From positions 1 to 64,000 of the forward strand of contig MEUE01000004.1 in the NCBI GenBank assembly GCA_001771585.1: 64,000 nucleotides of DNA, read 5' to 3'. A program made the translations under genes and the position numbers. The stretch is from a candidate division WOR-1 bacterium RIFOXYB2_FULL_46_45. GTDB taxonomy: Bacteria; Margulisbacteria; WOR-1; XYC2-FULL-46-14. Positions 2,172 to 23,131 of the stretch are shown here, one piece after another; the stretch's first letter is position 1; each line of letters begins with the position of its first letter. The notes below the pieces were generated by a model, which ran no database searches, had not been told where the DNA came from, and saw only the letters and a program-made list of their open reading frames with translations.

Positions 2172-3098
2172 TCAAAACTTACACCCTAACGCAAAATAAT
2201 GTGAATCGACACTCGTTCCGTTTGATCTTCTCCACGCGTAATCAAATTGAAACCCCCTTAAAAAATCAACCCCCAATCCAACAGCTCCTGTCCCAACATA
2301 GTTTGCACTATTATCTTTTGAAAATGATTCTCCCAACCTGACCTTTAGCCACTCAACAACAGAGAACTCTCCGCCAAGCAAGAGGTTATCAATATCGATA
2401 TTTTGATCAATATTATTATCCTGCAAATCCATGGCAAGCAAAATCCTCTCTGCGATTGGCCGATAAGATACACCCAGGACAGCTCCTTTGGTTATTTTTT
2501 CGCGCAACCCGCTGGCCCAATTGAAATCGGTTGGATAAATGTTTTCCAATGTCATTCCTACTGAAAAATTCCAAATCGGACTCCACAGCAATCCCAAATC
2601 AAAGCTGTACGCTTTTTCTTCTGATATTGCAGTAAACTCTTGGGATAAACAATGGTATTTTATCCCTACTCCCAACCAATCGGTAATCTTGTTGCCGTAT
2701 GTAACTGCCATATCCCCTTTTTGATAATTGGTATTATCGGAGGAAATTAAATTACCATTTCCATCTAGTATTATTGTAGGAATATTATAAGTTCCCATAA
2801 GATTATAACCAATACCTAGCGCTCCGTAATTATTTAAATTTACGACCCCACTAAAATAATACTGATTAACATCTGACATTAGTGAAGCATAACTTCCTAA
2901 TAATTCATTTGCTTTTATAAAACCAAGGCCGCCGGGGTTTAAAAACACCGCATTAGCATCGTCCGCAATGCCAACAAAAGCACCCCCCATGGCTACAACT
3001 CGGGGTGAAGAGGAAGAAAGAAATGATGAAAAAGAAGGATTAGTAAGCAAAACGCTTAAACCGGCAATTATAAATATCAGTAAAAATTTCCCCTTCAA
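2172..3098 (-). CDS. PorV/UPF0164-like outer-membrane beta-barrel protein
   Basis: 308 residues with a hydrophobic signal sequence at the N-terminus. After it comes the signature SSPRVVAMGGAFVGIADDAN followed by NPGGLGFI, typical of PorV/PorQ and FadL-like barrels of the UPF0164 group. The remainder alternates short polar and aromatic strands, and it ends in an aromatic residue (GCKF), as barrel proteins often do. The start is TTG, overlapping the stop of the preceding barrel gene, and no other in-frame start precedes the signal peptide; translation is probably coupled. It is the last gene of a six-gene chain. Transport substrate unknown. Confidence 0.75.
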   Translation of the reverse strand: MKGKFLLIFIIAGLSVLLTNPSFSSFLSSSSPRVVAMGGAFVGIADDANAVFLNPGGLGFIKANELLGSYASLMSDVNQYYFSGVVNLNNYGALGIGYNLMGTYNIPTIILDGNGNLISSDNTNYQKGDMAVTYGNKITDWLGVGIKYHCLSQEFTAISEEKAYSFDLGLLWSPIWNFSVGMTLENIYPTDFNWASGLREKITKGAVLGVSYRPIAERILLAMDLQDNNIDQNIDIDNLLLGGEFSVVEWLKVRLGESFSKDNSANYVGTGAVGLGVDFLRGFQFDYAWRRSNGTSVDSHYFALGCKF

Positions 3099-5179
3099 AA
3101 CTCAAGCCCTCCGCTAAACTTCAATTGCGTAGCCGAAAAATTATTAGTTGGTGTTATTGTGTCCTTATTGTCGATCTTTTTCCATTCTCCTCCTAAATTT
3201 ATCAAGGACAAGATCGGATTGACCCCCGTCGTTGAAATTTTACAGGTTAACGAAATGCCTTGCTCGGCCCTATCGCCGGAAAGGCCGCCTCCCCTATTTT
3301 GCGCGACTGAATAATCGTAGAAGAGGCCTATCGTACTTTGGGCAAAAAGAGTAAATTCATACCCCAATCGGCAAAGCGGAGTTGTGGTGCGCACGGATTG
3401 GGAATTGATCTCGTCTTTGTAATTTAAAAAAACCGATCCTCCAAAATTAAACTTGTTAAGCCAACCGTATTCAAGGCTGGTCTTAACCGCTTCTTGAGTC
3501 GCGCTGTTCGTATATTTTAAGATAATATCCGAAACTTTTGCCGGTAAATAGCCGCCAATCCCGATCCTCTGGTACAACGTGACCACCTTCTCCCGGCTAT
3601 CCCGAACATCAATCCGAGACGATAAGTTTGGCGCGGGATCCCACCTGATTCCGGCATGATTAAATGAACTATTGGATTCTAAAGTGGCGCTTCCCTCTTG
3701 GGTAACCGAGAAACCGGTTCCGGCAAGCAAAGACAGTCCTTTTATAAGCGAATATTCCGCTCCCGCATAACCCTCGTTATATTTACTTTTTATCCCCAGC
3801 TTTACCCTTTTATCGGAAGCAAAGTTTGAGTCGCTGTTCAAATAGGACCCGTAAACTTTTAAATTATTGAACAGCCCCATCCCGGTGATTTTAACGGCAT
3901 TCCCGCTTTCACCGGTTACAGTTGGGGTAATCCCTTGATTTATGCTGTTTGAAAATTCGCCAATAAGATAGGCGTTTTGCCCAAAATTAATACGCTCATA
4001 AAGGCTGTAAACACTAAAATTGTGAGGATCAAAAACAGATAAAGAGGACTTATTGGCCAAAAACGAGTAGGAAAATTTGAGGGTATTCCAGTCAACCGGA
4101 TTATATTCAACCGCTCCCCCCAAAGTATCGTGTTTTTCTCTGGCATAAGAGTAGTCGTATTTAACCTTTACTCTCGCGTCTTCAGGGACAGGATCGCGCA
4201 AAACAAAGAGTCCCCGATTGTAATCCACGGAATAATCGATACCTCTCCTTATTTTTACCTCATCAATCAAAATCTCTTCGGAATAACTGAGCAGAGGCAT
4301 TCCGGGGACATAAAACGCCTGCCGCCGGGAATCGTTCTTTATATCAAAATTCAGCTCTTCCTTATTCCCATTCGGCAAAGAAAAAACGACCCGTGCGCTA
4401 TTCGATCCCTGGTAATAAGAGGAAGAAAAAAGGACAAAATCATCAAAGATAAAGTAATCAAAGTTGGGAATAAGTTTTTTTTCGTTGATGTATAATTCAA
4501 CCGTCTCCGGTAAAACATCAATTCTTTTAAGATCTAAGCTTCTATACTCTAATTTAGGATCGTCATCATAAAGACCAGGAGATTTCTCCCCATAATAATC
4601 CGGGCTCCTAAAATAGTTCCAGTTGTTGAGCGCCTCCGTAGTATAAGAGGTTGTCATACTGCCGGATGGCATTAGGCTGAATTTTAATCGATCCCATTTT
4701 CCGGAAAGTAATACCCCGGAAACAGTATAGGAATAAAGCGAATAAAAGAGGTTGGAATTGTAAAAATCGGTCTCTCCCAATAAGATTGAGTATTCCTTAT
4801 ATTTGAGCCCAACGTTAAACACCCCCCTTACAAGAGGGTTTTGATAAATTAAATAATTAACCGACAAGTCGGAAGCAAGATCGGCATTAATTAACAGGCT
4901 TAATTTTTCTGCCCATGCAAGATCACCCGTTCTGGAGGCTTCCGAGCTGGTTCGGTATAGATAGTAGTTGGATTGAGGATTAACTTGAAATTGATCGTAA
5001 AACCATTGTTTTTCACCGCTGATATCGATTTTGGGATACTGCGCCTGGCCTTCTATGACCCACTCGGAAAAAGAGGGGGATTGAAAAAAGCAGATAAGCC
5101 CCCAAGCCAATAAAAAACAACAAATCAAAAAATCTTTTTTTGTTTTCAATTTATTCCTCTTTGATAGCATCCCCTTCAA
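3095..5179 (-). CDS. Large outer-membrane beta-barrel protein, uncharacterised
   Basis: 694 residues. A signal segment lies near residues 17-38. The middle contains two related units (ETVELYINEKKLIPNFDYFI and a second beginning EILIDEVKIRRGIDY) of the kind seen in large envelope proteins, where a short beta domain precedes the barrel. The second half has many amphipathic strands and ends in FSGGLEF, a barrel-type terminus. It overlaps both neighbours by 4 nt. The likely start is TTG, sharing bases with the TGA of the metalloprotease gene; an ATG three codons later is the alternative. Not recognised as a named family; role unknown, probably in envelope assembly or export with its operon partners. 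Confidence 0.6.
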   Translation of the reverse strand: MKGMLSKRNKLKTKKDFLICCFLLAWGLICFFQSPSFSEWVIEGQAQYPKIDISGEKQWFYDQFQVNPQSNYYLYRTSSEASRTGDLAWAEKLSLLINADLASDLSVNYLIYQNPLVRGVFNVGLKYKEYSILLGETDFYNSNLFYSLYSYTVSGVLLSGKWDRLKFSLMPSGSMTTSYTTEALNNWNYFRSPDYYGEKSPGLYDDDPKLEYRSLDLKRIDVLPETVELYINEKKLIPNFDYFIFDDFVLFSSSYYQGSNSARVVFSLPNGNKEELNFDIKNDSRRQAFYVPGMPLLSYSEEILIDEVKIRRGIDYSVDYNRGLFVLRDPVPEDARVKVKYDYSYAREKHDTLGGAVEYNPVDWNTLKFSYSFLANKSSLSVFDPHNFSVYSLYERINFGQNAYLIGEFSNSINQGITPTVTGESGNAVKITGMGLFNNLKVYGSYLNSDSNFASDKRVKLGIKSKYNEGYAGAEYSLIKGLSLLAGTGFSVTQEGSATLESNSSFNHAGIRWDPAPNLSSRIDVRDSREKVVTLYQRIGIGGYLPAKVSDIILKYTNSATQEAVKTSLEYGWLNKFNFGGSVFLNYKDEINSQSVRTTTPLCRLGYEFTLFAQSTIGLFYDYSVAQNRGGGLSGDRAEQGISLTCKISTTGVNPILSLINLGGEWKKIDNKDTITPTNNFSATQLKFSGGLEF

Positions 5180-6429
5180 ATCATCAGCTTTTTCTCTTCC
5201 CAGAGATTAAGTTTTTCTTTAAGCACTTCTATCCTGTCAGCGGGTGAAGGGTGCGATTTGAAGATCGAGTAATCGGGATGCTGCTCGTCAAGCGTCTTTA
5301 ATTTCATCATTAACCTGATCATCCCCTTTGGATCGTATCCCGCCGATGACATATAAGACAATCCGGCAATGTCCGCTTCTTTTTCGATTTCCCTGCTGTA
5401 GCCGGACGAAAAAAGATTTGAGAAAAATCCGACCGATAGTTCGGTCAGCTTTGTGTTGCCCCTAAACCCACTGCTTCCAAGCAGTGCCAAACCAACAATT
5501 GTTCCCACCGTATTGGCGTTTTGGCCGGCTTCGTACTGCTTGATCTGGTGCCTTTCGCTGTAATGGCTCAACTCGTGTGAAAGCAGCCCCGCGACCTCTT
5601 CTTCCGTATCCAGGACATCAAAAAGCCCCTTGGTCATATAAAGCGTCCCGTCCGCTATTATAAAAGTGTTAAAGTCGGGAGTGTTTAAAAGGGTTAGATT
5701 GTCTTTGCGCGGAGTGATGCGGCAGATTCCGGCAAGTTTATCATAGGTTTTTATGATCATCTTCATCTTTTCTTTTTCGGCCTCGGTCCTCAAGTCCGAC
5801 TGGGGATAGACGGTAAACTTTTCTGAAGTGTAAGTCCGCCCCATTTCGGTCAACTTCTTTTCCGTTTCGGAAAGATGCTCTATTTCCGGAAAACAGATCC
5901 TGCACGGAATATAATTGGACTTTTCGGCGTACTGGCGGCTCATACAAATAGTTTCCTGCCCATAAGTGTGCCCGCTGCCGGGCTTATGAAACTGGCTGGC
6001 GGAAGCGCTTAGTTCGACTATTTGGGATCCTTTTGATTCTACGGTTTCTATCTCAATCATCTTGTTTTCTTTTGAACCCCAGCCGCTGCTGCCGAATACT
6101 TCTAGCGTGGCGGTTGTGCCGATCTTGAGCCCTTTCACCGCGGAAACAAACTCCTGCGGATTTTTTACGCTAATCCCGTTAACTTTATAAATAAGGTCCT
6201 CTTTTTTGATCTTTTCGCAATCGGAAAGCGAGACATAGACGCCGGAGGTCGATTCCAACTGCATCTTTTCCGCCAAAAACGGGTCGATCGGAGTGATTTT
6301 TATCGGAAGACTTGATTCCCGAAGCAGATTGGCAGGATCAACTTTGGCCAGGTAATCGGCAGTCTCTTCCGCAAAAGATAACGGGGAAAGCAGGAACAGG
6401 AACAGAAACGCGATGATTAAGTTTTTCAT
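5176..6429 (-). CDS. Secreted M48-family metalloprotease with N-terminal PDZ-like domain
   Basis: 417 residues. A signal peptide (residues 1-20) is followed by a PDZ-like region (KKEDLIYKVNGISVKNPQEF). Next comes a short Cys-containing stretch (CMSRQ...CRICFP) that could bind metal, then an M48 peptidase domain. The zinc motif HELSH is in LLSHELSHYSERH near residue 290, and the third ligand Glu is in EKEADIAGLSYM. This layout matches BepA/Loi-type periplasmic quality-control proteases, which act on outer-membrane proteins, consistent with barrel genes downstream in the same chain. An excellent ribosome site (AAAGGAGG) lies 5 nt before the ATG. It overlaps the next gene by 4 nt. Confidence 0.85.
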   Translation of the reverse strand: MKNLIIAFLFLFLLSPLSFAEETADYLAKVDPANLLRESSLPIKITPIDPFLAEKMQLESTSGVYVSLSDCEKIKKEDLIYKVNGISVKNPQEFVSAVKGLKIGTTATLEVFGSSGWGSKENKMIEIETVESKGSQIVELSASASQFHKPGSGHTYGQETICMSRQYAEKSNYIPCRICFPEIEHLSETEKKLTEMGRTYTSEKFTVYPQSDLRTEAEKEKMKMIIKTYDKLAGICRITPRKDNLTLLNTPDFNTFIIADGTLYMTKGLFDVLDTEEEVAGLLSHELSHYSERHQIKQYEAGQNANTVGTIVGLALLGSSGFRGNTKLTELSVGFFSNLFSSGYSREIEKEADIAGLSYMSSAGYDPKGMIRLMMKLKTLDEQHPDYSIFKSHPSPADRIEVLKEKLNLWEEKKLMI

Positions 6430-7013: not shown

Positions 7014-8257
7014 AGCTTCCACCCGCTTTTTAAGACCAGCGAATTAAAATACCTGGCATACGATTGGTTAAAGAAGAGCGCGTCCCCTTCGTAATCCAGC
7101 GAAACCGTCGAATCGGGAGAGAGGGAGTAGCTGATTTCCGCTCCGTAATCCATCGCGGAAGACAACGCCCCCAAAATCGAAGGGCCGGCATCTCCCACAA
7201 CTTTACCCGCCAGCCCGGCGGTTACTTTTCCTCCCAGCTTATCGCTAAAATCCCTTAAATACTCAAGCCCTCCCCTTAAGCCCAAAAAAGTATTGTTGGA
7301 AAGATCGTTCCTTAAAAGGATTCCCCTAAACCCCAGGGCCGAAAACAAGCTTCCTCCGGCCAAATCGGAAAGGAGCGGATTTTTGTAGTTCACCATCGCG
7401 TCCAGCTTATTTTCGGTCGTCTCCTCATCTCTTATCGCCCCGGGATTAGGAATTAAATAGCGCGCGTTGTAAGAGATTCCCGAACCGACCACTTCGACCA
7501 GTCGGTTGGAATAAGCAAGTTCTCCGCCGTAGGTATAATTTGAATTGGACGAGGAGGACTGCTCGTAAAGATGCCCCATCATCCCTCCCAGTGAGACCTC
7601 GTTTTTTAATTTTGCCGCCGTTGCCGGCTCTTTCTCTTTCTTTTTTACCGCCAAAACTCTCTGTTGTTTTAGGTATTCGGCCGTTTTTACCAGCGCGGCC
7701 ATAACCTCATAGCGTTTGACCGGGCGGTTTTCTTTAAACGCCCGATCCGAAAAATTGTCCATTGCTTTCCTTTTTACGAATTTTACCGCTTCGGCCTGGT
7801 TCATTGGAAGATCGGGATCCATGGCAATCGCTCTTGCCAAAACGACCGCGAATTGGTTGATTGTAACCTTAATCTCCCCCATAAAATCCTTCGATTCGGT
7901 GCATTCCATTATTTTATACTGGTAGACCACCTTCCTGACATCGGAATAAAAAGGAGCATTAAGAGGAACATCGGAGAATCTTATATCCATCCCGGGCGAT
8001 TTTCTGGCGATCAGATTTTCTTTTTCCAGATAAGACAAATATTTTGACATTATTTCGGCCAGGTTCAATCGGGTCGTCTCTTTGTCGGCGTATTGCATCC
8101 ACCAGCCACCGATTTCCAAAGAAGCGGCCCTGGTCAGATACGGGGAATACCAGGCATCGGGCTGGATCGCCTTCTTCTGGGCGCAAAAGGCAATATTCTG
8201 TAAGCAACACAATAAGGTCGACATTAAACAAACGTACTTTAAATATTTAAACCTCAT
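7010..8257 (-). CDS. SLH-like domain protein with C-terminal beta-barrel
   Basis: About 415 residues. A signal peptide at the N-terminus ends near NIAFCA. Two S-layer-homology-like segments follow (FSDVPLNAPFYSDVRKVVYQY and FSDRAFKENRPVKRYEVMAAL), then a linker, then a strand-rich C-terminal half ending LVLKSGWKL. SLH plus barrel is the OmpM-like plan that ties the outer membrane to the cell wall in several diderm lineages outside Proteobacteria. The ATG at 8257 lies one base after the stop of the lipoprotein gene, which favours it over an in-frame ATG six codons upstream. The SLH match is moderate. Confidence 0.6.
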   Translation of the reverse strand: MRFKYLKYVCLMSTLLCCLQNIAFCAQKKAIQPDAWYSPYLTRAASLEIGGWWMQYADKETTRLNLAEIMSKYLSYLEKENLIARKSPGMDIRFSDVPLNAPFYSDVRKVVYQYKIMECTESKDFMGEIKVTINQFAVVLARAIAMDPDLPMNQAEAVKFVKRKAMDNFSDRAFKENRPVKRYEVMAALVKTAEYLKQQRVLAVKKKEKEPATAAKLKNEVSLGGMMGHLYEQSSSSNSNYTYGGELAYSNRLVEVVGSGISYNARYLIPNPGAIRDEETTENKLDAMVNYKNPLLSDLAGGSLFSALGFRGILLRNDLSNNTFLGLRGGLEYLRDFSDKLGGKVTAGLAGKVVGDAGPSILGALSSAMDYGAEISYSLSPDSTVSLDYEGDALFFNQSYARYFNSLVLKSGWKL

Positions 8258-8258
8258 T

Positions 8259-9797
8259 CTAATAAGGGTAACCATAAAAAAGCCCAGAATTATATTTTAA
8301 TTCGATTCCATTTCCTGATAAGTCTTTTACGTTTGAAGAAACCTCAACCGTTGCGATTGTGGTTGTGCCAGGAAACATAGTTAAAGCAACCTGAGCAAAA
8401 CGATAAGAAGACCCGCTATAAATATTGGTTAGTTGAGCTTTAGATATGGTTTGACCTGAGATTGAATAGTTTCCTATGGTTTCTGCACTATTTTTATCCA
8501 AAGGTTCAGTAAAAAACACATAAGCTTCTTTGGATGAATAAGTCGGAGCATAATTATAAGGGATGTAAGAGGCGGAATGAACTTGAGGTTTTTTTGTGTC
8601 TTTAATGGTTATAATATTTGACGCTGGGCTTTCCCCATTAGAATTGGCCGCAACTACCTTAAAATCAATGGCATTGCTTCCAACAAACGGCCAAACTATC
8701 CCATATCCCTTGTCTTCGGGATATGAATACCCGGTTCTGGTAAAATCGGCAAGTGAACTGTCTAAATTGTCAATTTTTATGTTCATTTCTTTATAAGCAC
8801 CCAAAGAATAACTGGAATCACTATATAATTGAAACGGTCCGTTATTGTAGCGGCAATAAAGCTTATAAGAAGTTGCTTGATCAACAGGATTCCATGATAA
8901 AGTTACATAATTATTATAATAATAAATATCACTATAATCTATTTCTGTAGTGCCATTTGCCGTTTTAAATTGAAAATTAGCCGGAGCGGCGGAAGGAGCC
9001 GGGGCAGTAGCAACAGTCGTTATCAAATTAACCATTAAACTATTTCCGGAAGTAGAATATCCGGAATAATCAAGAGAATTCCCGCTCATATCTTTTATGG
9101 AGAGGTAATCTCCTGCAGGCCCGGAAAGAAAGATTCCATAAAGAGAGCCGGAAAGAAAATTGTTTTTTGGTTTTATGGTTAAAATTTTATTGGCTGTGTC
9201 CCATGATTTTTCGGCTTCTACCACTCCTTTAGAAGACACACCATAACTACTCATCCCGGCATAGTACAAGGTGGGTATAACCGTTGTAATATCCATCGGC
9301 TCACTAAAAACAATTACCGCCGAGTTCAATGCGCTATTTGCGTCTATGGTTGCAGAAACAATTTTGGGATTGTCAACCAACAAAACATCCAATGTTAAAA
9401 CGGTATTTTCTGATGGATTTTCAGGAAACGCACCCTTAGCTACACCATCCTGAAACCCCTCCCTGGTAACAATAACAGTATAGGAACCAGGGGAAACATT
9501 TTTGATGGAATAAAAACCATTCGCATCGGTAACAACTGCAGAAGATGCTAGTCCGGGGATGCTAACTTTTGCACCTGCGATTGCATCCTTTTGTAAAAAA
9601 CTGTAAGAAACATAAGAATAACTACTCATGGTATAAGCATAAGCTCCTGTTTTTACTGTCCCCTGAATTGTTAACCCCTTCGCTGCCCCCGGAACAATGC
9701 TAACCTCCGACTTGATCCCCTGACCGCAACCAAACAATGAAACCGAAACCGCAAGCAACAAGATAACCGAAAACAAGACCGACAATTTCTTTGCCAT
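8259..9797 (-). CDS. Surface lipoprotein with carboxypeptidase-regulatory and Ig-like domains
   Basis: About 512 residues. The signal sequence ends in the lipobox SLFGC. An N-terminal carboxypeptidase-regulatory-like domain (AIAGAKVSIPGLASS to GSYTVIVTREGFQDG) is followed by a Big_5/SbsA-like Ig domain (SAVIVFSEPMDITTV), a fibronectin-III-like segment (ATSYKLYCRYNNG) and a second SbsA-like domain (AYVFFTEPLDKNSAET). AGGAGG lies 9 nt before the ATG at 9797 and only 3 nt before an ATG at 9803, so I take the former. It heads the six-gene envelope operon and is preceded by a terminator-like hairpin. Probably a surface adhesin or scaffold; ligand unknown. Confidence 0.75.
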   Translation of the reverse strand: MAKKLSVLFSVILLLAVSVSLFGCGQGIKSEVSIVPGAAKGLTIQGTVKTGAYAYTMSSYSYVSYSFLQKDAIAGAKVSIPGLASSAVVTDANGFYSIKNVSPGSYTVIVTREGFQDGVAKGAFPENPSENTVLTLDVLLVDNPKIVSATIDANSALNSAVIVFSEPMDITTVIPTLYYAGMSSYGVSSKGVVEAEKSWDTANKILTIKPKNNFLSGSLYGIFLSGPAGDYLSIKDMSGNSLDYSGYSTSGNSLMVNLITTVATAPAPSAAPANFQFKTANGTTEIDYSDIYYYNNYVTLSWNPVDQATSYKLYCRYNNGPFQLYSDSSYSLGAYKEMNIKIDNLDSSLADFTRTGYSYPEDKGYGIVWPFVGSNAIDFKVVAANSNGESPASNIITIKDTKKPQVHSASYIPYNYAPTYSSKEAYVFFTEPLDKNSAETIGNYSISGQTISKAQLTNIYSGSSYRFAQVALTMFPGTTTIATVEVSSNVKDLSGNGIELKYNSGLFYGYPY

Positions 9798-11837: not shown

Positions 11838-12230
11838 TCATCTTCTTTTAACCTTCTCGCCGACGGTCTTTTCCAGCAAATTGCACTGTCTCTTCAGATC
11901 GTCAATCAATTTAACTCCCGACAACTTTGTTTCCAATTCTCCCAAAATCTTCCGGCAAAAAGTGAGCTCTTCCCTGACTTCTTCCCACCAGACCGGACCG
12001 GATGAGTTGCGCGCCTTATAAACCCCCGAAGAGACCCGCAGGGCCGAATTGATCAAACAGTGCATTAAATCCCTTAAATAAACTTTCTCTTCCAAAAAAC
12101 CGGCCAGTTCAACCGCCAGACGGCTGAAATTGTGCGCTTCGCGGACAGACTCGCTCTCCTTCATCTCTTTTTCAAAAAGCTTGATAAACGAGGCCAGCGT
12201 CGATTGGTTAAATTGCGGTTCGATCATCAT
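11838..12230 (-). CDS. Small four-helix-bundle protein (23S intervening-sequence type, weak match)
   Basis: 130 residues, entirely helical in character. The section LINSALRVSSGVYKARNS and then KILGELETKLSG resembles the R-x-A-x-S-I-x-A-N-I ... G-S-L-x-E-L-E-T motif order of the four-helix-bundle proteins named after 23S rRNA intervening sequences, but the first motif is poorly kept. Upstream of the exported gene set and divergent from the NtrC-type regulator. Role unknown. Confidence 0.45.
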   Translation of the reverse strand: MMIEPQFNQSTLASFIKLFEKEMKESESVREAHNFSRLAVELAGFLEEKVYLRDLMHCLINSALRVSSGVYKARNSSGPVWWEEVREELTFCRKILGELETKLSGVKLIDDLKRQCNLLEKTVGEKVKRR

Positions 12231-12364: not shown

Positions 12365-13723
12365 ATGGACAACAAAATGATTGAAGGCGCTCCGTATATT
12401 CTGGTGGTTGATGATGAAGCAAATATGCTTATTGCCTATAAAACTTTTCTCAAGCCCGACTATAATCCGATTTTATGCTCAAACGGAACGGAGGCTCTTC
12501 AAAAATTGACCGAATATTCTTTTTCGGCGGCGATACTTGATCTCAAAATGCCCGATATGGACGGTCTTGAACTTTTGGAAAAAATCAAGGAACACGATTC
12601 CGACCTTGGCGTCATCATGTCAACGGCGACCAACGACGTCAAATACGCGGTGCAGGCGATTAAAAAAGGAGCGTTTGAATACGTCACCAAGCCGTTCCAA
12701 TACGAAGAAATACTGGGACTGGTTGCTAAAATAGTCGAGCGGAGGGAATTGCGCAAAGAGAACTTCTACCTCAAATCGGCCCTAAAAGAACAGCAGTCCT
12801 TTTCCGATCTGATCGGACAAACCTCCGTTATGCGGAATGTGTTTATGATAATAGAAAATATGAACTCGGTCGGCAGCACTGTCTTGATAACCGGCGAATC
12901 GGGGACGGGAAAAGAGCTGGTAGCACACGCGATCCACCAAAGGAGCGATCGAAAAAACAAACCTTTTGTGGTGGTAAACTGTGCCGCTATTCCGGAAAAT
13001 CTGTTCGAATCGGAGCTCTTTGGCCACGAGCGGGGCTCTTTCACCGGCGCTTTTGAACGCAAGATCGGAAAATTCGAGCTGGCCGATACCGGGACCATTT
13101 TCTTGGACGAGATCGGCTGTTTGCCGCAATCGATGCAGGCGAAACTATTGAGGATCCTGCAGGATAATCATATTGAAAGGGTCGGCGGGAAGGGACCGAT
13201 AAAAATCTCGGTGCGGATTGTGGCGGCAACCAACACCGACCTGGAGCAGGCGCTTAAAAACAAAAGTTTCCGCGAAGATCTTTTTTACCGCTTAAACGTC
13301 ATTCCGATCAAGCTCCCCCCTTTGCGGGAGAGAAGGGCCGACCTTCCGCTTTTGATCGAATATTTTCTGAAAAAATTTAACGAGGAGCTGAAAAAACAGA
13401 TTGCGGGGATTGACCGGCAGGTCATGAACGAACTTTTGGAATACGACTGGCCGGGGAACATCCGGGAATTAAAGAATGTGATCGAGCGGGCGGTGGTTTT
13501 GACCAAAAACGGGATGATCACCGATATTTCGTTGAGAGGAAAAGCGGTGAACGGAATGCCGGAGACGCTTACGAGCTTAAAAGAGGCCTCGGCCGAATTT
13601 GAGAAAGAGTATATCAAAAAAGCGCTTGCCAAAACCGGCGGCAATCAATCGGAAACTTCACGCCTCCTTGGAATTCATAGGACTACTTTGATTTCGAAGA
13701 TGAATCTGCTCGGCCTAAAGTGA
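12365..13723 (+). CDS. Sigma54-dependent response regulator, NtrC family
   Basis: 452 residues in three parts. A receiver domain (residues about 11-125) has phosphoacceptor context AAILDLKMPDMDG and KPFQYEE at its end. An AAA+ domain has Walker A GESGTGKE and the sigma54-contact motif GSFTGAF, where GAFTGA is usual. A Fis-type helix-turn-helix at the C-terminus reads NQSETSRLLGIHRTTLISKM. It activates RNA polymerase carrying sigma54 when phosphorylated. It overlaps tail-to-tail by 9 nt with a histidine kinase gene on the other strand, its likely partner. Confidence 0.9.
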   Translation: MDNKMIEGAPYILVVDDEANMLIAYKTFLKPDYNPILCSNGTEALQKLTEYSFSAAILDLKMPDMDGLELLEKIKEHDSDLGVIMSTATNDVKYAVQAIKKGAFEYVTKPFQYEEILGLVAKIVERRELRKENFYLKSALKEQQSFSDLIGQTSVMRNVFMIIENMNSVGSTVLITGESGTGKELVAHAIHQRSDRKNKPFVVVNCAAIPENLFESELFGHERGSFTGAFERKIGKFELADTGTIFLDEIGCLPQSMQAKLLRILQDNHIERVGGKGPIKISVRIVAATNTDLEQALKNKSFREDLFYRLNVIPIKLPPLRERRADLPLLIEYFLKKFNEELKKQIAGIDRQVMNELLEYDWPGNIRELKNVIERAVVLTKNGMITDISLRGKAVNGMPETLTSLKEASAEFEKEYIKKALAKTGGNQSETSRLLGIHRTTLISKMNLLGLK

Positions 13724-14731
13724 GACCGTAAAAACGGTCCCCTGTTTTTCCTTGCTTTGAACGGTTATTGTCCCGCGGTGTTCTTCTATTATCTTGTGGG
13801 TGATCGCCAGGCCAAGGCCCGAACCTTTTTCTTTGGTCGTGAAAAAGGGATCAAAAATATTCTTGAGCTTATCTTCCGCTATGCCGGCGCCGTTGTCGGA
13901 AACTTCAACCGCAATCCCCTCCCCTTTGGGATAAGATTTTACGGTTATCTCTCCGTTTGAAGAAGAGATCGACTGCATCGCGTTTAAAATTAAATTGGTA
14001 AAGACCTGCCGCATCTGTTCGGGATCAAGTTCTTTTGGCGGCAAAGTGGCCAGCTCTTTTCTGATCTTAATATTCTTTTTGCTCAACTCCGGCTCCAGCA
14101 GTTTTATGATGTTTTCCAGTACAGCGTTTAAATTAACCGGGCTCTTTTGCGGCTTGGGGGGCTTGGAATAGGACAAAAGGTTCCGTACCAGCTTATCGAT
14201 GCGGTCAACCTCTTCCGAGACCACCTGCTTGAAGTCGGCCAAAGTTTCTTTGTCCTGTGAAAGAAAGGCTCTTTCCATCCCGTCGGCCATCCCTTTTATG
14301 GCGGCGAGGGGGTTTTTGATCTCATGCGCCATACCGGCGGCGACGGTACCGAGCGAAGCCAGCTTATCGGCTTGCAGGAGCTGTTTTTGGGCGGCAAGCG
14401 TTTCTTGATACAATCTGGCCCTTTCGATCGCGATGGCCAGCTGGTTTGAGATGGTATTTAAGAAATCTATATCTTCGTCGTCGTAGATGTCGCCGTTTTC
14501 TTTTTCTCCGAGGTTAAAGAAGCCGATCAGCCGGTTTTCGGCGAACAACGGGACGGCGACCGCGGCCTCCATTTTTTGCAGTTCTTCTTTTACCTTTTGC
14601 AGTTCACTCTCCGCGCTGCCGGACGATTCGAGATCCATTATGAGCTCTTCGAGAACGACCGGCTTTTTGGTCTTCTCAAGATAGAGGATCAATGGGGAAC
14701 TTTTGGAAACTATTTCTTCTGATTGGAGCAT
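13715..14731 (-). CDS. Histidine kinase beginning inside a GAF domain (sensor part missing)
   Basis: 338 residues. The protein starts in the second half of a GAF domain ([16 protein letters not shown] to [13 protein letters not shown]). It continues with HisKA (H-box [15 protein letters not shown]) and an HATPase domain with N box [16 protein letters not shown], and [12 protein letters not shown]. Typical relatives have seven membrane helices and a whole GAF domain ahead of this point; here they are absent and no ribosome site precedes the ATG. The missing half is present on the opposite strand immediately beyond, beginning at 14760. Probable partner of the convergent NtrC-type regulator. It may be a rearranged, possibly silent, gene. 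Confidence 0.85.
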
Positions 14732-14759
14732 GATACAATCATATGGGGGAAAGAGAAAG

Positions 14760-15800
14760 ATGTCAACCTATCAAATCGCGCCGGTTGTGACGGCGATTCT
14801 GGTGCTTTGTATTTGCATCTTTGTGGTCTTTCAAAACAGAAAATCCCAGATAAATATTGTCTTTGGATTTCTTAGCTTAAGCATATTTGTTTGGCTGGCC
14901 GGTTTCTCCGCAATGTATTTTAGCTCGAACCCGGAACAAGCACTATTTTTTGCCCGGCTGGGATTTGTTGGAGTAACTATTATCCCTTTTTTGAGTTATC
15001 ACTTTATCGCGATCTTTTTAAACAGAGCTCCTTCCGTCCGTTTTTTAATATTGTTGTACACATTGATTATCCCAATTTTATTTATGACTCCGACCCGGTT
15101 AATGTATTCGGACATTGAAAAGCATTTTTGGGGCTATTATCCGATCGCAGGCCCTTTTTATTTTATTTCTCCGATAATGTTCGTCTTGCTTATTTTGTAT
15201 GGTTTAATATTGCTTGGGTCCGGAAACAAGCAGGTTGAGGCAAGAAAGAGAGAGCAGAAAAAATATATTTTTGTTGCTTTTGTCGCGGTCATTTTGGGCT
15301 TTGTTGATTATCTTCCAAAATACGGCGTTAATATTTATCCCTTCGGTTATCTTTCGGCGTTGTCTTTTATTTCGATAATTGCCTACTCTATTACAAAGTA
15401 CCGGTTGATGGATATACGGATTGCGATAAACCGGATCATGGCGTATCTTTTGCTTATAGCCATCTATTTTTCGGCAGGAATCGCCGCAAGCTGTATTTAC
15501 GCGCAATTTTTCTCGTTTGGCCAAAACGCTCCGACATTTTTATTTCTGGGAACAATGCTGATTATTGCCGGCCTCTCCTTCCACCCCCTCCGCCTCCATT
15601 TACAGACCACCCCGGATCGATTCCTTTTCAGGAAGAAATATGAGTACGAGCAGGCGATTAGGGAGTTTGGAGAGCAAAGCAGATCGGAGATAAATACGAA
15701 CAAGCTACAAGCTGCTTTTACTGCAATTACAACAAAACTTTTAAGGACAAAACGTGCTAATTTGTTTTTGTTTGATCAACAAGGAAAACATAAAAAGTGA
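14760..15800 (+). CDS. Orphan 7TM sensor module ending in half a GAF domain (cassette 1)
   Basis: About 346 residues, starting at MSTYQIAP with GGGGGA 9 nt upstream. Seven hydrophobic helices match the histidine-kinase N-terminal 7TM domain. They are followed by the linker TTPDRFLFRKKYEYEQ and the first part of a GAF domain ending ANLFLFDQQGKHKK and a stop. No kinase domain follows. It is divergent from the kinase that lacks exactly this part; flipping this segment would place it directly upstream and in line with that kinase. More AT-rich than the kinase gene, except for a sharply bounded 96-bp block shared with cassette 2. Confidence 0.75.
   Translation: MSTYQIAPVVTAILVLCICIFVVFQNRKSQINIVFGFLSLSIFVWLAGFSAMYFSSNPEQALFFARLGFVGVTIIPFLSYHFIAIFLNRAPSVRFLILLYTLIIPILFMTPTRLMYSDIEKHFWGYYPIAGPFYFISPIMFVLLILYGLILLGSGNKQVEARKREQKKYIFVAFVAVILGFVDYLPKYGVNIYPFGYLSALSFISIIAYSITKYRLMDIRIAINRIMAYLLLIAIYFSAGIAASCIYAQFFSFGQNAPTFLFLGTMLIIAGLSFHPLRLHLQTTPDRFLFRKKYEYEQAIREFGEQSRSEINTNKLQAAFTAITTKLLRTKRANLFLFDQQGKHKK
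15579..15674 (+). repeat. 96-bp block shared by the two sensor cassettes (copy 1)
   Basis: About 93% identical to 16657-16752 (7 mismatches by eye) in direct orientation, while sequences on both sides are strongly diverged. It encodes the HPLRLHLQTTPDRFLF linker and the start of the following helix. Confidence 0.85.
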
Positions 15801-15819
15801 ATAATTTTGTTATCATATC

Positions 15820-16896
15820 ATGAGTATACCTTTATATTTTTATCAAACAGTTAATCTGATAAATGCCCTATTAAGCATCTTTTTGGCAATCATTGTTTTT
15901 AAATACAAAAGAGCTTTGATTGAAGGGACATTATTTAGCCTTTTCGCGTTTTTAGTGGCATTTTGGGCGTTTTTCTTCTACCTGGCTATTTTAACCAATA
16001 GTTACTTGTGGGCTCGATTCTTTTTTAGGACTTGCATGATTGGAGCAGCTTTAATTCCACCAGTATTTATTGAGTTCGCTTTTGCCTTAATTAAGAAAAA
16101 AATGCCCGGAATACTAAGATTTATTAACATAGGTTTGGCCATTGTAATATTATCAACAATTTATTCAAAAATTTATGCACTAGATGGCGGGCCTTTCTTA
16201 GGATTTTTATATTGGCCTGAAGTTGGTTGGACCTCTGCTCTAAGCATTTTATTGTATATCATCAATGTCGGAGTTGGACATTATTATCTTTTGTTGGCAA
16301 TTAAACAGGGAAATCCTTTTCAGAAAAAACAATTATCAATTGTTATGATAGGAACATTTTTAAGCTTTCTGGGCGCCGGCACCAATTTTCTCTTGTGGTT
16401 TCGTATCCCCTTTCCTCCGATTTTTAATATTTTAATACCTTTATATATTATTAGTGTTGCTTATGCCATAACGACGCATCGTTTTATGAATGTACGATTA
16501 GTGATTAATCGCATTGTTGCATATTCTCTTTTGATTACCATCTACGCCTTGTTAAGTTTAGCCGCCATCTATTTATATTCCAAAGTGCTGCCTTTTGGGA
16601 TAAATTCTCCAACTTTATTTTTCTTGTGCATATTAATAATAGCAGGGGGCCTGTTTTTCCACCCCCTCCGCCTCCATCTACAGACCACCCCGGACCGATT
16701 CCTTTTTAGGAAGAAATACGAGTATGAGCAGGCGATTAGGGAATTTGGCGAAGCCTGCCAGTCGGTTATTGATCCGGCGAAACTTATTGGATTATTTAAA
16801 GACAAGAACAAAAATTTGATAAAAATGAAGGCGGGGAAGGTTTATTTGATAAACAAGGGCGGGGATTTTAAATTATCCTTATTTATTCCAAAATAA
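15820..16896 (+). CDS. Orphan 7TM sensor module ending in half a GAF domain (cassette 2)
   Basis: 358 residues with the same plan as cassette 1: seven membrane helices, the DRFLFRKKYEYEQ linker, then a GAF start ending KVYLINKGGDFKL and a stop a few residues later. The membrane part shares little sequence with cassette 1, implying different stimuli. The last residues (LSLFIPK) fall at the edge of the non-coding element that follows, so an insertion may have trimmed the gene. AT-rich apart from the 96-bp block. It could be a degraded kinase, or an alternative sensor module for the kinase at 13.7-14.7 kb. Confidence 0.7.
   Translation: MSIPLYFYQTVNLINALLSIFLAIIVFKYKRALIEGTLFSLFAFLVAFWAFFFYLAILTNSYLWARFFFRTCMIGAALIPPVFIEFAFALIKKKMPGILRFINIGLAIVILSTIYSKIYALDGGPFLGFLYWPEVGWTSALSILLYIINVGVGHYYLLLAIKQGNPFQKKQLSIVMIGTFLSFLGAGTNFLLWFRIPFPPIFNILIPLYIISVAYAITTHRFMNVRLVINRIVAYSLLITIYALLSLAAIYLYSKVLPFGINSPTLFFLCILIIAGGLFFHPLRLHLQTTPDRFLFRKKYEYEQAIREFGEACQSVIDPAKLIGLFKDKNKNLIKMKAGKVYLINKGGDFKLSLFIPK
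16657..16752 (+). repeat. 96-bp block shared by the two sensor cassettes (copy 2)
   Basis: Direct-repeat partner of 15579-15674. It is noticeably richer in G+C than the surrounding gene, which fits recent gene conversion or recombination. Confidence 0.85.
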
Positions 16897-21055: not shown

Positions 21056-23131
21056 GTGAACCAATACATATTGTCAACAATATTAACCAGTTTAACAACC
21101 TTTTTAATTGGTGGATATGTTGTATTTAATAATTTTAAGGCGAGTCGTAATAGGGCTCTTTGTTTTTTTGCCCTAAGTGTTTCTGCGTGGAGCCTTTTTT
21201 TATTCTTAAATATTCAAGCAAAAGATATTGCTCAGGCAATCCTCTTTGTTCGATTACTCCATGTATCTTCTACTCTTATCGCTATTTCTTTTTTACATCT
21301 AGCACTAATTCTTTCAAATAATTTGAAGCAGAAAACATTTTTGATTGCCTGCTACTTAATTGCTTTTTTTACGGCATTTTTTGACTTTAGTCCTTGGCTA
21401 GTTAGTGCGAGATATTTAAATGATTTTGGCTTTATCGTTGCTAACCCCGAAATTCTATACCCATTACATCTGCTAGTGTTTTTTGGTTTTCATATCTATG
21501 CTTTTTTATTAATTTTCTTTGAACTTATCAATGCTAAAGGGGAAAAAAAGAACGAGTTTTTCTATTTTATGCTGGCTATTTTAATTGGATATTCTGGAGG
21601 GGCGGCCAATTACTTAATTAATTTTAATATAAAGATTTTTCCTTTTTGGCCTTTTGGTAATTATACAATAGTAGCTTTTGTTGCTATCTTAGCCTACGCC
21701 ATCACAAAAACCCGCTTAATGGACATCCGAGTTGTTATCGGAAAAACATTTTCTCACCTAATAACTATCGCCATATTTGCCGGAATATATTCTGTAATGG
21801 CCGTCCTTTATATTAGCACTTACGGCCAATTCGATTGGTGGTTCTTTGCCGCCAGCGTCTGCTACGGCATTTTGGTCGGCGAATCGTTCGACCGCCTGCG
21901 ACAACATATTCAGACACCATTCGACCGGTTCTTTATAAAAAGCACCTACAACTTCTCCGAAATCACCAGAGATATGACCGTAAAATTCCGGAAATCAACC
22001 ACCAAACCGAGCATTATCGAAAATATCTTCCCGCTCCTCGACAATAAAGTCGATATCTCAAGCGTCCGCTTCTTCTTTGCCGACCAAAACGACCGGCTGG
22101 TAGAATGGGACACGAAAGAACTTAAGCCGATCTTTGAATCAACTATCCCCTCCTCCGACCCGCTGATTGTTGAACTTATGAAAAAGAAAGAAAAAGACGT
22201 TGCACCGATTCCCGAAGGATCTGCCGTAAAAGGGGCCCTCTGTATCCCCTCCTCCCACGACGATAAAATCCTGGCGGCAATCATCCTCGGCAAAAAAAGG
22301 TCCGAAGACGATTATACCGAACAGGACTTAAACCTCTTTCGCGCCATCTCCGAATATATGATGGTCTCGCTGGAATTTATCATCAAACCGTTCGAAGCCG
22401 TCACCCACCAGTTTGAAGCGTCCGAGCGGAAATTGATGCGGGCAGAGAAAGAACTGTACCGCTCCCAGCGCCTGGCTTCGATCGGAACCTTAACCGCAGG
22501 AGTGACGCATGAAATCAGGAACCCGCTGGGGGTCTTGAGATCGGGATTGGAAATTCTCCCCAAACAACTGCGCGACCAGAATTATTTAAACGAATTCCGC
22601 GATAAATACGTCAAATACGTCGACCGCATCGAGGGGATCGTTGAAAAGGTCCTCGGCCTCGCCCGCGACGAACGGGTCAAGACCGAAAGGACAATCGATC
22701 TTAACGCTTTAATCCAGGGGACCGTCAAGCTGGTCAATTTTAAAGATAACACCAGGGCCGTTTTCGACCTGCAGGCGATCCCAAAAATAAAAGGAGTGGA
22801 AGACGATCTTGAAAGAGTGATCATCAACCTGGCCGAAAATGCCGACCACGCCATGCCCGACGGAGGGACTTTGACAATCAAGACCTATACCAAAAAGGTG
22901 GATGAACAAAACAGGGTTTTTGTCGAATTGGTTGATACCGGGATCGGGATCCCCGAAGAGAATAAAGAGAAGATTTTTGATCCGTTCTTCAGTTCAAGGC
23001 ACGAAGGAACCGGACTCGGACTTTCAATCTGTTTTAGAATTATCAAAGAACACGGCGGCGATATCTCTTTCCAAAGCGAAGAAGGAAAGGGAACAACCTT
23101 TCTGCTCTCTTTTCCCCCGTTAGAAGTATGA
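21056..23131 (+). CDS. 7TM-GAF histidine kinase, full length
   Basis: 691 residues, GTG start 4 nt after the HAD gene. Seven membrane helices (about 5-225) are followed by the linker LRQHIQTPFDRFFIKSTYNF, a GAF domain (about 300-425), HisKA with SIGTLTAGVTHEIRNPLGVL and HATPase with NLAENADHAMP, DTGIGIP and GTGLGLSI. The gene serves as a template for judging the truncated relatives at 13.7-16.9 kb. Base composition changes sharply near 21.78 kb: the membrane half is AT-rich, the GAF and kinase half is not. Two receiver genes lie convergent to it and overlap its 3' end by 12 nt; they are likely targets. Confidence 0.9.
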   Translation: MNQYILSTILTSLTTFLIGGYVVFNNFKASRNRALCFFALSVSAWSLFLFLNIQAKDIAQAILFVRLLHVSSTLIAISFLHLALILSNNLKQKTFLIACYLIAFFTAFFDFSPWLVSARYLNDFGFIVANPEILYPLHLLVFFGFHIYAFLLIFFELINAKGEKKNEFFYFMLAILIGYSGGAANYLINFNIKIFPFWPFGNYTIVAFVAILAYAITKTRLMDIRVVIGKTFSHLITIAIFAGIYSVMAVLYISTYGQFDWWFFAASVCYGILVGESFDRLRQHIQTPFDRFFIKSTYNFSEITRDMTVKFRKSTTKPSIIENIFPLLDNKVDISSVRFFFADQNDRLVEWDTKELKPIFESTIPSSDPLIVELMKKKEKDVAPIPEGSAVKGALCIPSSHDDKILAAIILGKKRSEDDYTEQDLNLFRAISEYMMVSLEFIIKPFEAVTHQFEASERKLMRAEKELYRSQRLASIGTLTAGVTHEIRNPLGVLRSGLEILPKQLRDQNYLNEFRDKYVKYVDRIEGIVEKVLGLARDERVKTERTIDLNALIQGTVKLVNFKDNTRAVFDLQAIPKIKGVEDDLERVIINLAENADHAMPDGGTLTIKTYTKKVDEQNRVFVELVDTGIGIPEENKEKIFDPFFSSRHEGTGLGLSICFRIIKEHGGDISFQSEEGKGTTFLLSFPPLEV

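Follow-up and report, generated by a model that had tools for sequence, protein, structure and literature searches.

A probable split 7TM-GAF histidine kinase with mosaic sensor genes in Margulisiibacteriota

Why does a minus-strand histidine kinase gene begin in the middle of a GAF domain when two plus-strand genes beside it each encode a 7TM sensor that stops inside that same domain? The locus that raises this question lies in a 64,000-nucleotide stretch (the window) of contig C4 of genome G000 (1.70-Mb, 99% complete). The first-pass annotation of the window read it as a kinase split by inversion, either in a past rearrangement or in a shufflon-like system that swaps sensors. We compared the locus with related genomes, among them G001 (same family, different genus) and G010 (another family); all but one or two of the assemblies compared are fragmented metagenome assemblies. 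The features are collected in Table 1. Window sensors 1 and 2 are also called W1 and W2, C1a and C1b are the pair on contig C1 of G000, C3 is the lone sensor on contig C3, G1a and G1b are two sensors of G001, and G10b and G10d are the second and fourth sensors of an array in G010.

Table 1. Features of the split kinase locus, in window positions
Feature	Position	Strand	Basis
Small conserved protein (probably helical), divergent from regulator	11838..12230	-	
NtrC-family sigma54-dependent response regulator, REC-AAA+-HTH_8	12365..13723	+	Pfam
Short soluble histidine kinase, 338 aa: C-terminal half of GAF + HisKA + HATPase_c	13715..14731	-	
HATPase_c catalytic domain	13718..14026	-	Pfam + fold match
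HisKA dimerisation/phosphoacceptor domain, H136-E-I-K-N motif	14162..14353	-	Pfam
C-terminal GAF half in kinase; three helices and two strands	14480..14695	-	AlphaFold2, Pfam
Divergent intergenic region between kinase start and sensor 1 start, 28 bp	14732..14759	.	sequence
Sensor 1, 346 aa: HisKA_7TM + two more TM helices + constant linker + GAF alpha1-beta1	14760..15800	+	
Constant linker of sensor 1, residues 273-305, SFHPLRLHLQTTPDRFLFRKKYEYEQAIREFGE	15576..15674	+	
Sensor 2, 358 aa: HisKA_7TM + two more TM helices + constant linker + GAF alpha1-beta1-beta2	15820..16896	+	
Constant linker of sensor 2	16654..16752	+	97% protein identity to sensor 1 linker

The kinase gene (ATG at 14731, with 12 more open codons upstream in an open frame of 350) does begin in mid-GAF, as first read. 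Pfam matched only the C-terminal part of that domain (profile positions 59-133 of PF01590 and 83-136 of PF13185), followed by HisKA and HATPase_c. The AlphaFold2 model (mean pLDDT 87.5, and 84-97 in the half-GAF part) places H13-21, H27-36 and H42-53 before only two GAF strands, E58-64 and E67-74, and then a long signalling helix. H136 and E137 are invariant among the five short kinases that were found, the homologues being 330, 329, 330 and 340 aa long, and the catalytic motifs are intact. Fold matches to the kinase were ZraS, WalK and HK853; this comparison spanned mainly HisKA-HATPase and, therefore, says little on the half-GAF.

Both sensors scored above the cut-off for HisKA_7TM (PF16927), and Pfam found no domain 3' of it in either sensor and no kinase domain. 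With the 7TM on one strand and HisKA/HATPase_c on the other, the halves are separate, oppositely oriented genes, homologous part by part to the 7TM-GAF histidine kinase family but not joined in one polypeptide. The C-terminus of the sensor 2 model (mean pLDDT 86.2) consists of H319-334, E340-344 and E350-355. In the predicted structures, each half by itself is without part of the GAF sheet. The 7TM of sensor 2 (model residues 1-232) also superposes on GPCR folds: all 50 chains listed were GPCR or GPCR-like 7TM receptors (Z 13.4-15.0, rmsd about 4, 190-255 residues, 5-12% identity), with weak Foldseek E-values of 0.01 and above. This likeness of the model may reflect only the common 7-helix arrangement.

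The break was mapped on an intact kinase of genome G028, G028kinA. The tails of 13 sensors extend to about positions 122-138, and the short kinases take over from about 141-146, so that sensor ends and kinase starts are complementary almost without overlap. A few terminal residues of W2, C3, G1K1 and G1K2 are misplaced in this alignment, which is an artefact of the aligner. Most sensors stop after GAF beta1, and sensor 2, G1a, G1b and C3 after beta2; alignment on intact relatives shows the short kinases beginning at the next helix, 'SPLvkYLkktkrPvvLeEl'. The open reading frames and the G028kinA alignment thus agree with the first-pass annotation that both sensor genes stop at the GAF position where the kinase starts, and its description of one kinase and, divergent from it, a pair of sensor cassettes that look interchangeable also stands.

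The same layout, RR>kinase<sensor>sensor> in the same orientations, was found at four loci: the window, a second locus of G000 (L009, contig C1) and twice in G001 (L042). At L009, the regulator lies at 3853-5193 (+), the kinase at 5185-6177 (-) and the sensors at 6216/6234-7295 (+) and 7302-8348 (+). The regulator and kinase stops converge with an overlap of exactly 9 bp at all four loci, the window included. The gaps from kinase to first sensor are 28, 56, 60 and 58 bp, the paired sensors are spaced 3-19 bp apart, and the kinases of the other loci are 52-62% identical to that of the window. A fifth sensor of G000 stands alone (L010:3216-4295, contig C3). G010 carries four tandem sensor-only genes (L139: 7850-8911, 8936-9973, 10015-11040 and 11061-12086) in an array that reaches the contig end, and its short kinase (340 aa, L043:4955-5977) is on a different contig.

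In a census of the class (31 genomes, Candidatus Margulisiibacteriota/Saganbacteria, WOR-1), the short sensors numbered 13 (5 in G000, 4 in G001 and 4 in G010) and the short kinases 5, all of them confined to the same three genomes. Almost all remaining 7TM kinases of the class in these 31 genomes are full length, five of them in G000 itself. Short hits in G025, G027 and G066 were considered as further split cases and rejected, these being genes cut by contig ends. No additional cases were found besides G010 in the best 80 loci matched on genome contigs, or beyond the three genomes among 74 genomes of the phylum. An annotation or frameshift artefact was rejected, since the two halves are encoded on opposite strands and are present in three genomes.

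The divergent region of the window holds overlapping -10-like elements, TACAAT (+) and TATGAT (-), which we infer to act as promoters. The minus-strand element stops 6 nt short of the kinase ATG and would give a leaderless kinase transcript. Just 5' of the first sensor, GTCAA...GTGTATAAT is present in three of the four divergent regions (L009 about 6195-6233; L042 about 4289-4325 and 13008-13040), the window copy being without it; it is likely to be a conserved sensor promoter. Sites for sigma54 promoters were no more frequent near the locus than expected by chance. Upstream of the regulator, the protein encoded at 11838-12230 had no NCBIfam match. Homologues with 32-43% identity are encoded at L009:3260-3808 and L042:15436-15990, three of the four loci have a protein of this type next to the regulator, and it is possibly part of the pathway.

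The sensors are mosaics of a 7TM part (sensor 1 residues 1-214) and a module of two TM helices, linker and GAF start (217-338). The 7TM parts of W1 and W2 share 20% identity, compared with 44% for W1 and G10d and 51% for W2 and G10b; the W2 7TM is 54-57% identical to a full-length G028 kinase. By contrast, the linker core (33 residues) follows lineage. It is 67-97% identical among the nine G000 and G001 sensors and 94-100% among the four of G010, versus 18-33% between these groups. Linker identity reached at least 60% in 31/31 same-lineage sensor pairs with 7TM identity below 26%, compared with 8/178 pairs of full-length kinases.

Trees of the two parts disagree. In the 7TM tree, the sensors are scattered among full-length kinases, and a single clade was rejected both for the four G010 sensors (lnL 265 lower, p-AU 3e-6) and for the nine G000/G001 sensors (lnL 234 lower, p-AU 1e-112). 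The module tree, for its part, rejects the clades W2+G10b+L044 (lnL 223 lower, p 2e-4) and W1+G10d (lnL 111 lower, p 2e-31). By these trees, the 7TM part and the module are without a single common history. Over evolutionary time, sensors seem to have been exchanged by joining differing 7TM domains to a lineage-specific constant linker.

The first-pass annotation had taken the kinase at 21056-23131 as the intact relative. It is a real one (7TM, weak GAF, HisKA and HATPase_c by Pfam), though remote, with 29% identity to sensor 1. A nearer intact counterpart, L044:2229-4190 of G028, shares 48% identity with sensor 2 along 311 residues and has a kinase domain that the kinase tree places as sister of the short kinases. 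It is one of two tandem full-length kinases on G028:C77 (L044:2-1453 and 2229-4190) and is itself a mosaic, combining a sensor-2-type 7TM and an LQTT-type linker with a kinase domain close to that of L044:2-1453. The G010 module clusters with the linkers of two full-length kinases, G028kinA and G016 (88/83, module tree), and the kinase tree likewise places both near the short kinases. A single clade of the five short kinases was neither supported nor rejected (p 0.13), nor was a single clade of the sensor modules (linker and GAF start) rejected (p 0.13). The split may have arisen either once or twice in Margulisiibacteriota.

We conclude that the locus is probably a fixed, ancient split 7TM-GAF histidine kinase, whose sensors would share the kinase through a common plug. 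The front half, consisting of a 7TM receptor, two more TM helices, linker and GAF alpha1-beta1(-beta2), is encoded by one gene, and the back half, consisting of the rest of GAF, HisKA and HATPase, by another. We infer from the alignments and models that the halves rebuild the GAF domain in trans: the sensor strand or strands would complete the half-GAF of the kinase at the membrane. Several sensors with different 7TM domains would then share one soluble kinase, which would phosphorylate the adjacent sigma54 regulator. New sensors would arise by recombination of a different 7TM domain onto the constant plug and not by programmed inversion. Complementarity of the break points, recurrence, fixed orientation, mosaic build and purifying selection (see below) are the observed parts of this explanation. 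Against it count the absence of beta2 from most sensors, the separation of the short kinase of G010 from its sensor array, the lack of clear support for a single origin of the five short kinases (neither supported nor rejected) and the fragmented state of nearly all the assemblies. For the more general idea of receptor exchange by split-domain complementation, in which diverse 7TM receptors complete one half-GAF kinase, foreign 7TMs join a lineage-specific plug and the arrangement may go back to two origins within Margulisiibacteriota, we lean only slightly towards acceptance.

The alternative that survives best is that the two kinds of gene act separately. The sensors would modulate full-length 7TM kinases as mixed dimers, being decoys or co-receptors, and the short kinase would be a cytosolic protein with an input of its own. 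This would fit the distance between short kinase and array in G010, the full-length 7TM kinase directly upstream of that array (L139:4376-6517) and the five full-length 7TM kinases of G000. However, the kinase adjoins the sensors at all four G000 and G001 loci, the 3 of 31 genomes that have one part also have the other, and the G010 linker groups with G028kinA and G016 instead of the neighbouring L139:4376-6517. We therefore regard separate action as unlikely, while still giving it some weight.

Could the likeness of linkers within a genome be due to recent gene conversion, without any functional plug? The W1 and W2 linkers do have the lowest dS among G000 pairs (0.65), and old conversion events may have occurred in the linker. 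Nevertheless, most linker pairs have dS of at least 1 or saturated, at a dN of only 0.01-0.23, and the linker is therefore held by selection and not by recent conversion. In the GAF tail of G1a and G1b, dN/dS is about 0.13. These substitution rates indicate that linker and tail are under purifying selection and are not debris. Recent conversion as the sole cause of linker identity is not supported by this pattern and is very improbable.

An active site-specific inversion, linking the kinase to one or the other sensor and making it phase-variable, would account for divergent halves with complementary break points and for two cassettes. Shufflons and phase-variable cassettes likewise have variable parts beside one constant part. 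However, the comparison with related genomes that the first-pass annotation had suggested gave a single orientation at four loci in two genera. Another of its suggestions, a search for a nearby recombinase, found none within about 83 kb of the locus, the closest serine and tyrosine recombinases being those at C4:99333 and C4:106875, more than 80 kb away. No inverted repeats of at least 14 nt pair the segment borders. The motif CATGATA/TATCATG is present at 14729-14735 and 15816-15822, the latter one base from where it had been placed, but it is not special, with 6 copies in 64 kb compared to 5.0 expected. Each sensor has its own stop codon, most others being shorter still, and therefore an inversion would line up two genes instead of fusing them into one frame. 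Also, the variable part here is N-terminal and every cassette is a complete gene, in contrast to shufflons. Inversion was thus rejected, and we give it almost no credence.

Outside the window, towards its end, C4 carries a 512-aa serine recombinase (99333-99782) and, not far from it, a 492-aa tyrosine recombinase frame (106875-107360), a pair that is possibly a mobile element.

The past rearrangement that had been offered as the other option remains plausible as the event that split the halves, but it would be ancient and its product has been kept as a functional gene set. That the pieces of a broken ancestral full-length kinase are now decaying is scarcely believable: every piece does lack half a domain and nearly all other 7TM kinases of the class are full length, but all frames are intact at four loci in two genera and in a four-gene array of another family, the catalytic motifs are intact, and linker dN and GAF-tail dN/dS are low.

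Two-component kinases normally hold sensor and kinase in one chain and, therefore, a new input requires a whole new kinase. If the proposed system is real, it would represent a modular interface between receptors and kinase that occurs naturally outside chemotaxis, taking inputs from several plug-in receptors via a split GAF. Complementation in trans would then permit a direct test of GAF signal passing, and the system would be a template for sensor building. The mosaic sensor genes also record the recruitment of new receptors. A search of the open-licence literature, with subscription journals outside its range, found no paper on 'split GAF' together with a histidine kinase.

Full-length 7TM-GAF histidine kinases (PF16927 + GAF + HisKA + HATPase_c; PrsK-like, TIGR02916) have the same domain order end to end, whereas at these loci a break within GAF divides the chain between two genes and the sensor half has been multiplied and diversified. 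The kinase scored 135 of the 300 bits required for TIGR02916 and the regulator 417 of 502.6 for TIGR02915; the nearest NCBIfam models of the regulator, AtoC/NtrC/PrsR, all stayed under their cut-offs. By these scores, the parts are relatives of HisKA_7TM-GAF-HisKA kinases and not PrsK/PrsR.

Single histidine kinases made from two gene products are known from Rhodobacter CheA3/CheA4 (PMC3591291) and Synechocystis Hik36/Hik43 (PMC7656254). Those are split inside a CheA kinase, between a phosphotransfer part and a dimerisation/catalytic part (PMC3591291; PMC7656254). In contrast, a single chain here carries the whole HisKA-HATPase core, phosphoacceptor domain as well as catalytic domain, and it is the GAF domain on the sensor side that is cut.

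MCPs combine variable input domains with a conserved cytoplasmic module, so that many sensors act on one soluble CheA. The proposed system would be like them in serving many sensors with one soluble kinase. These loci yielded no MCP signalling domain, no CheW and no CheA, and the contact proposed here, unlike that of MCPs, would be a split GAF fold.
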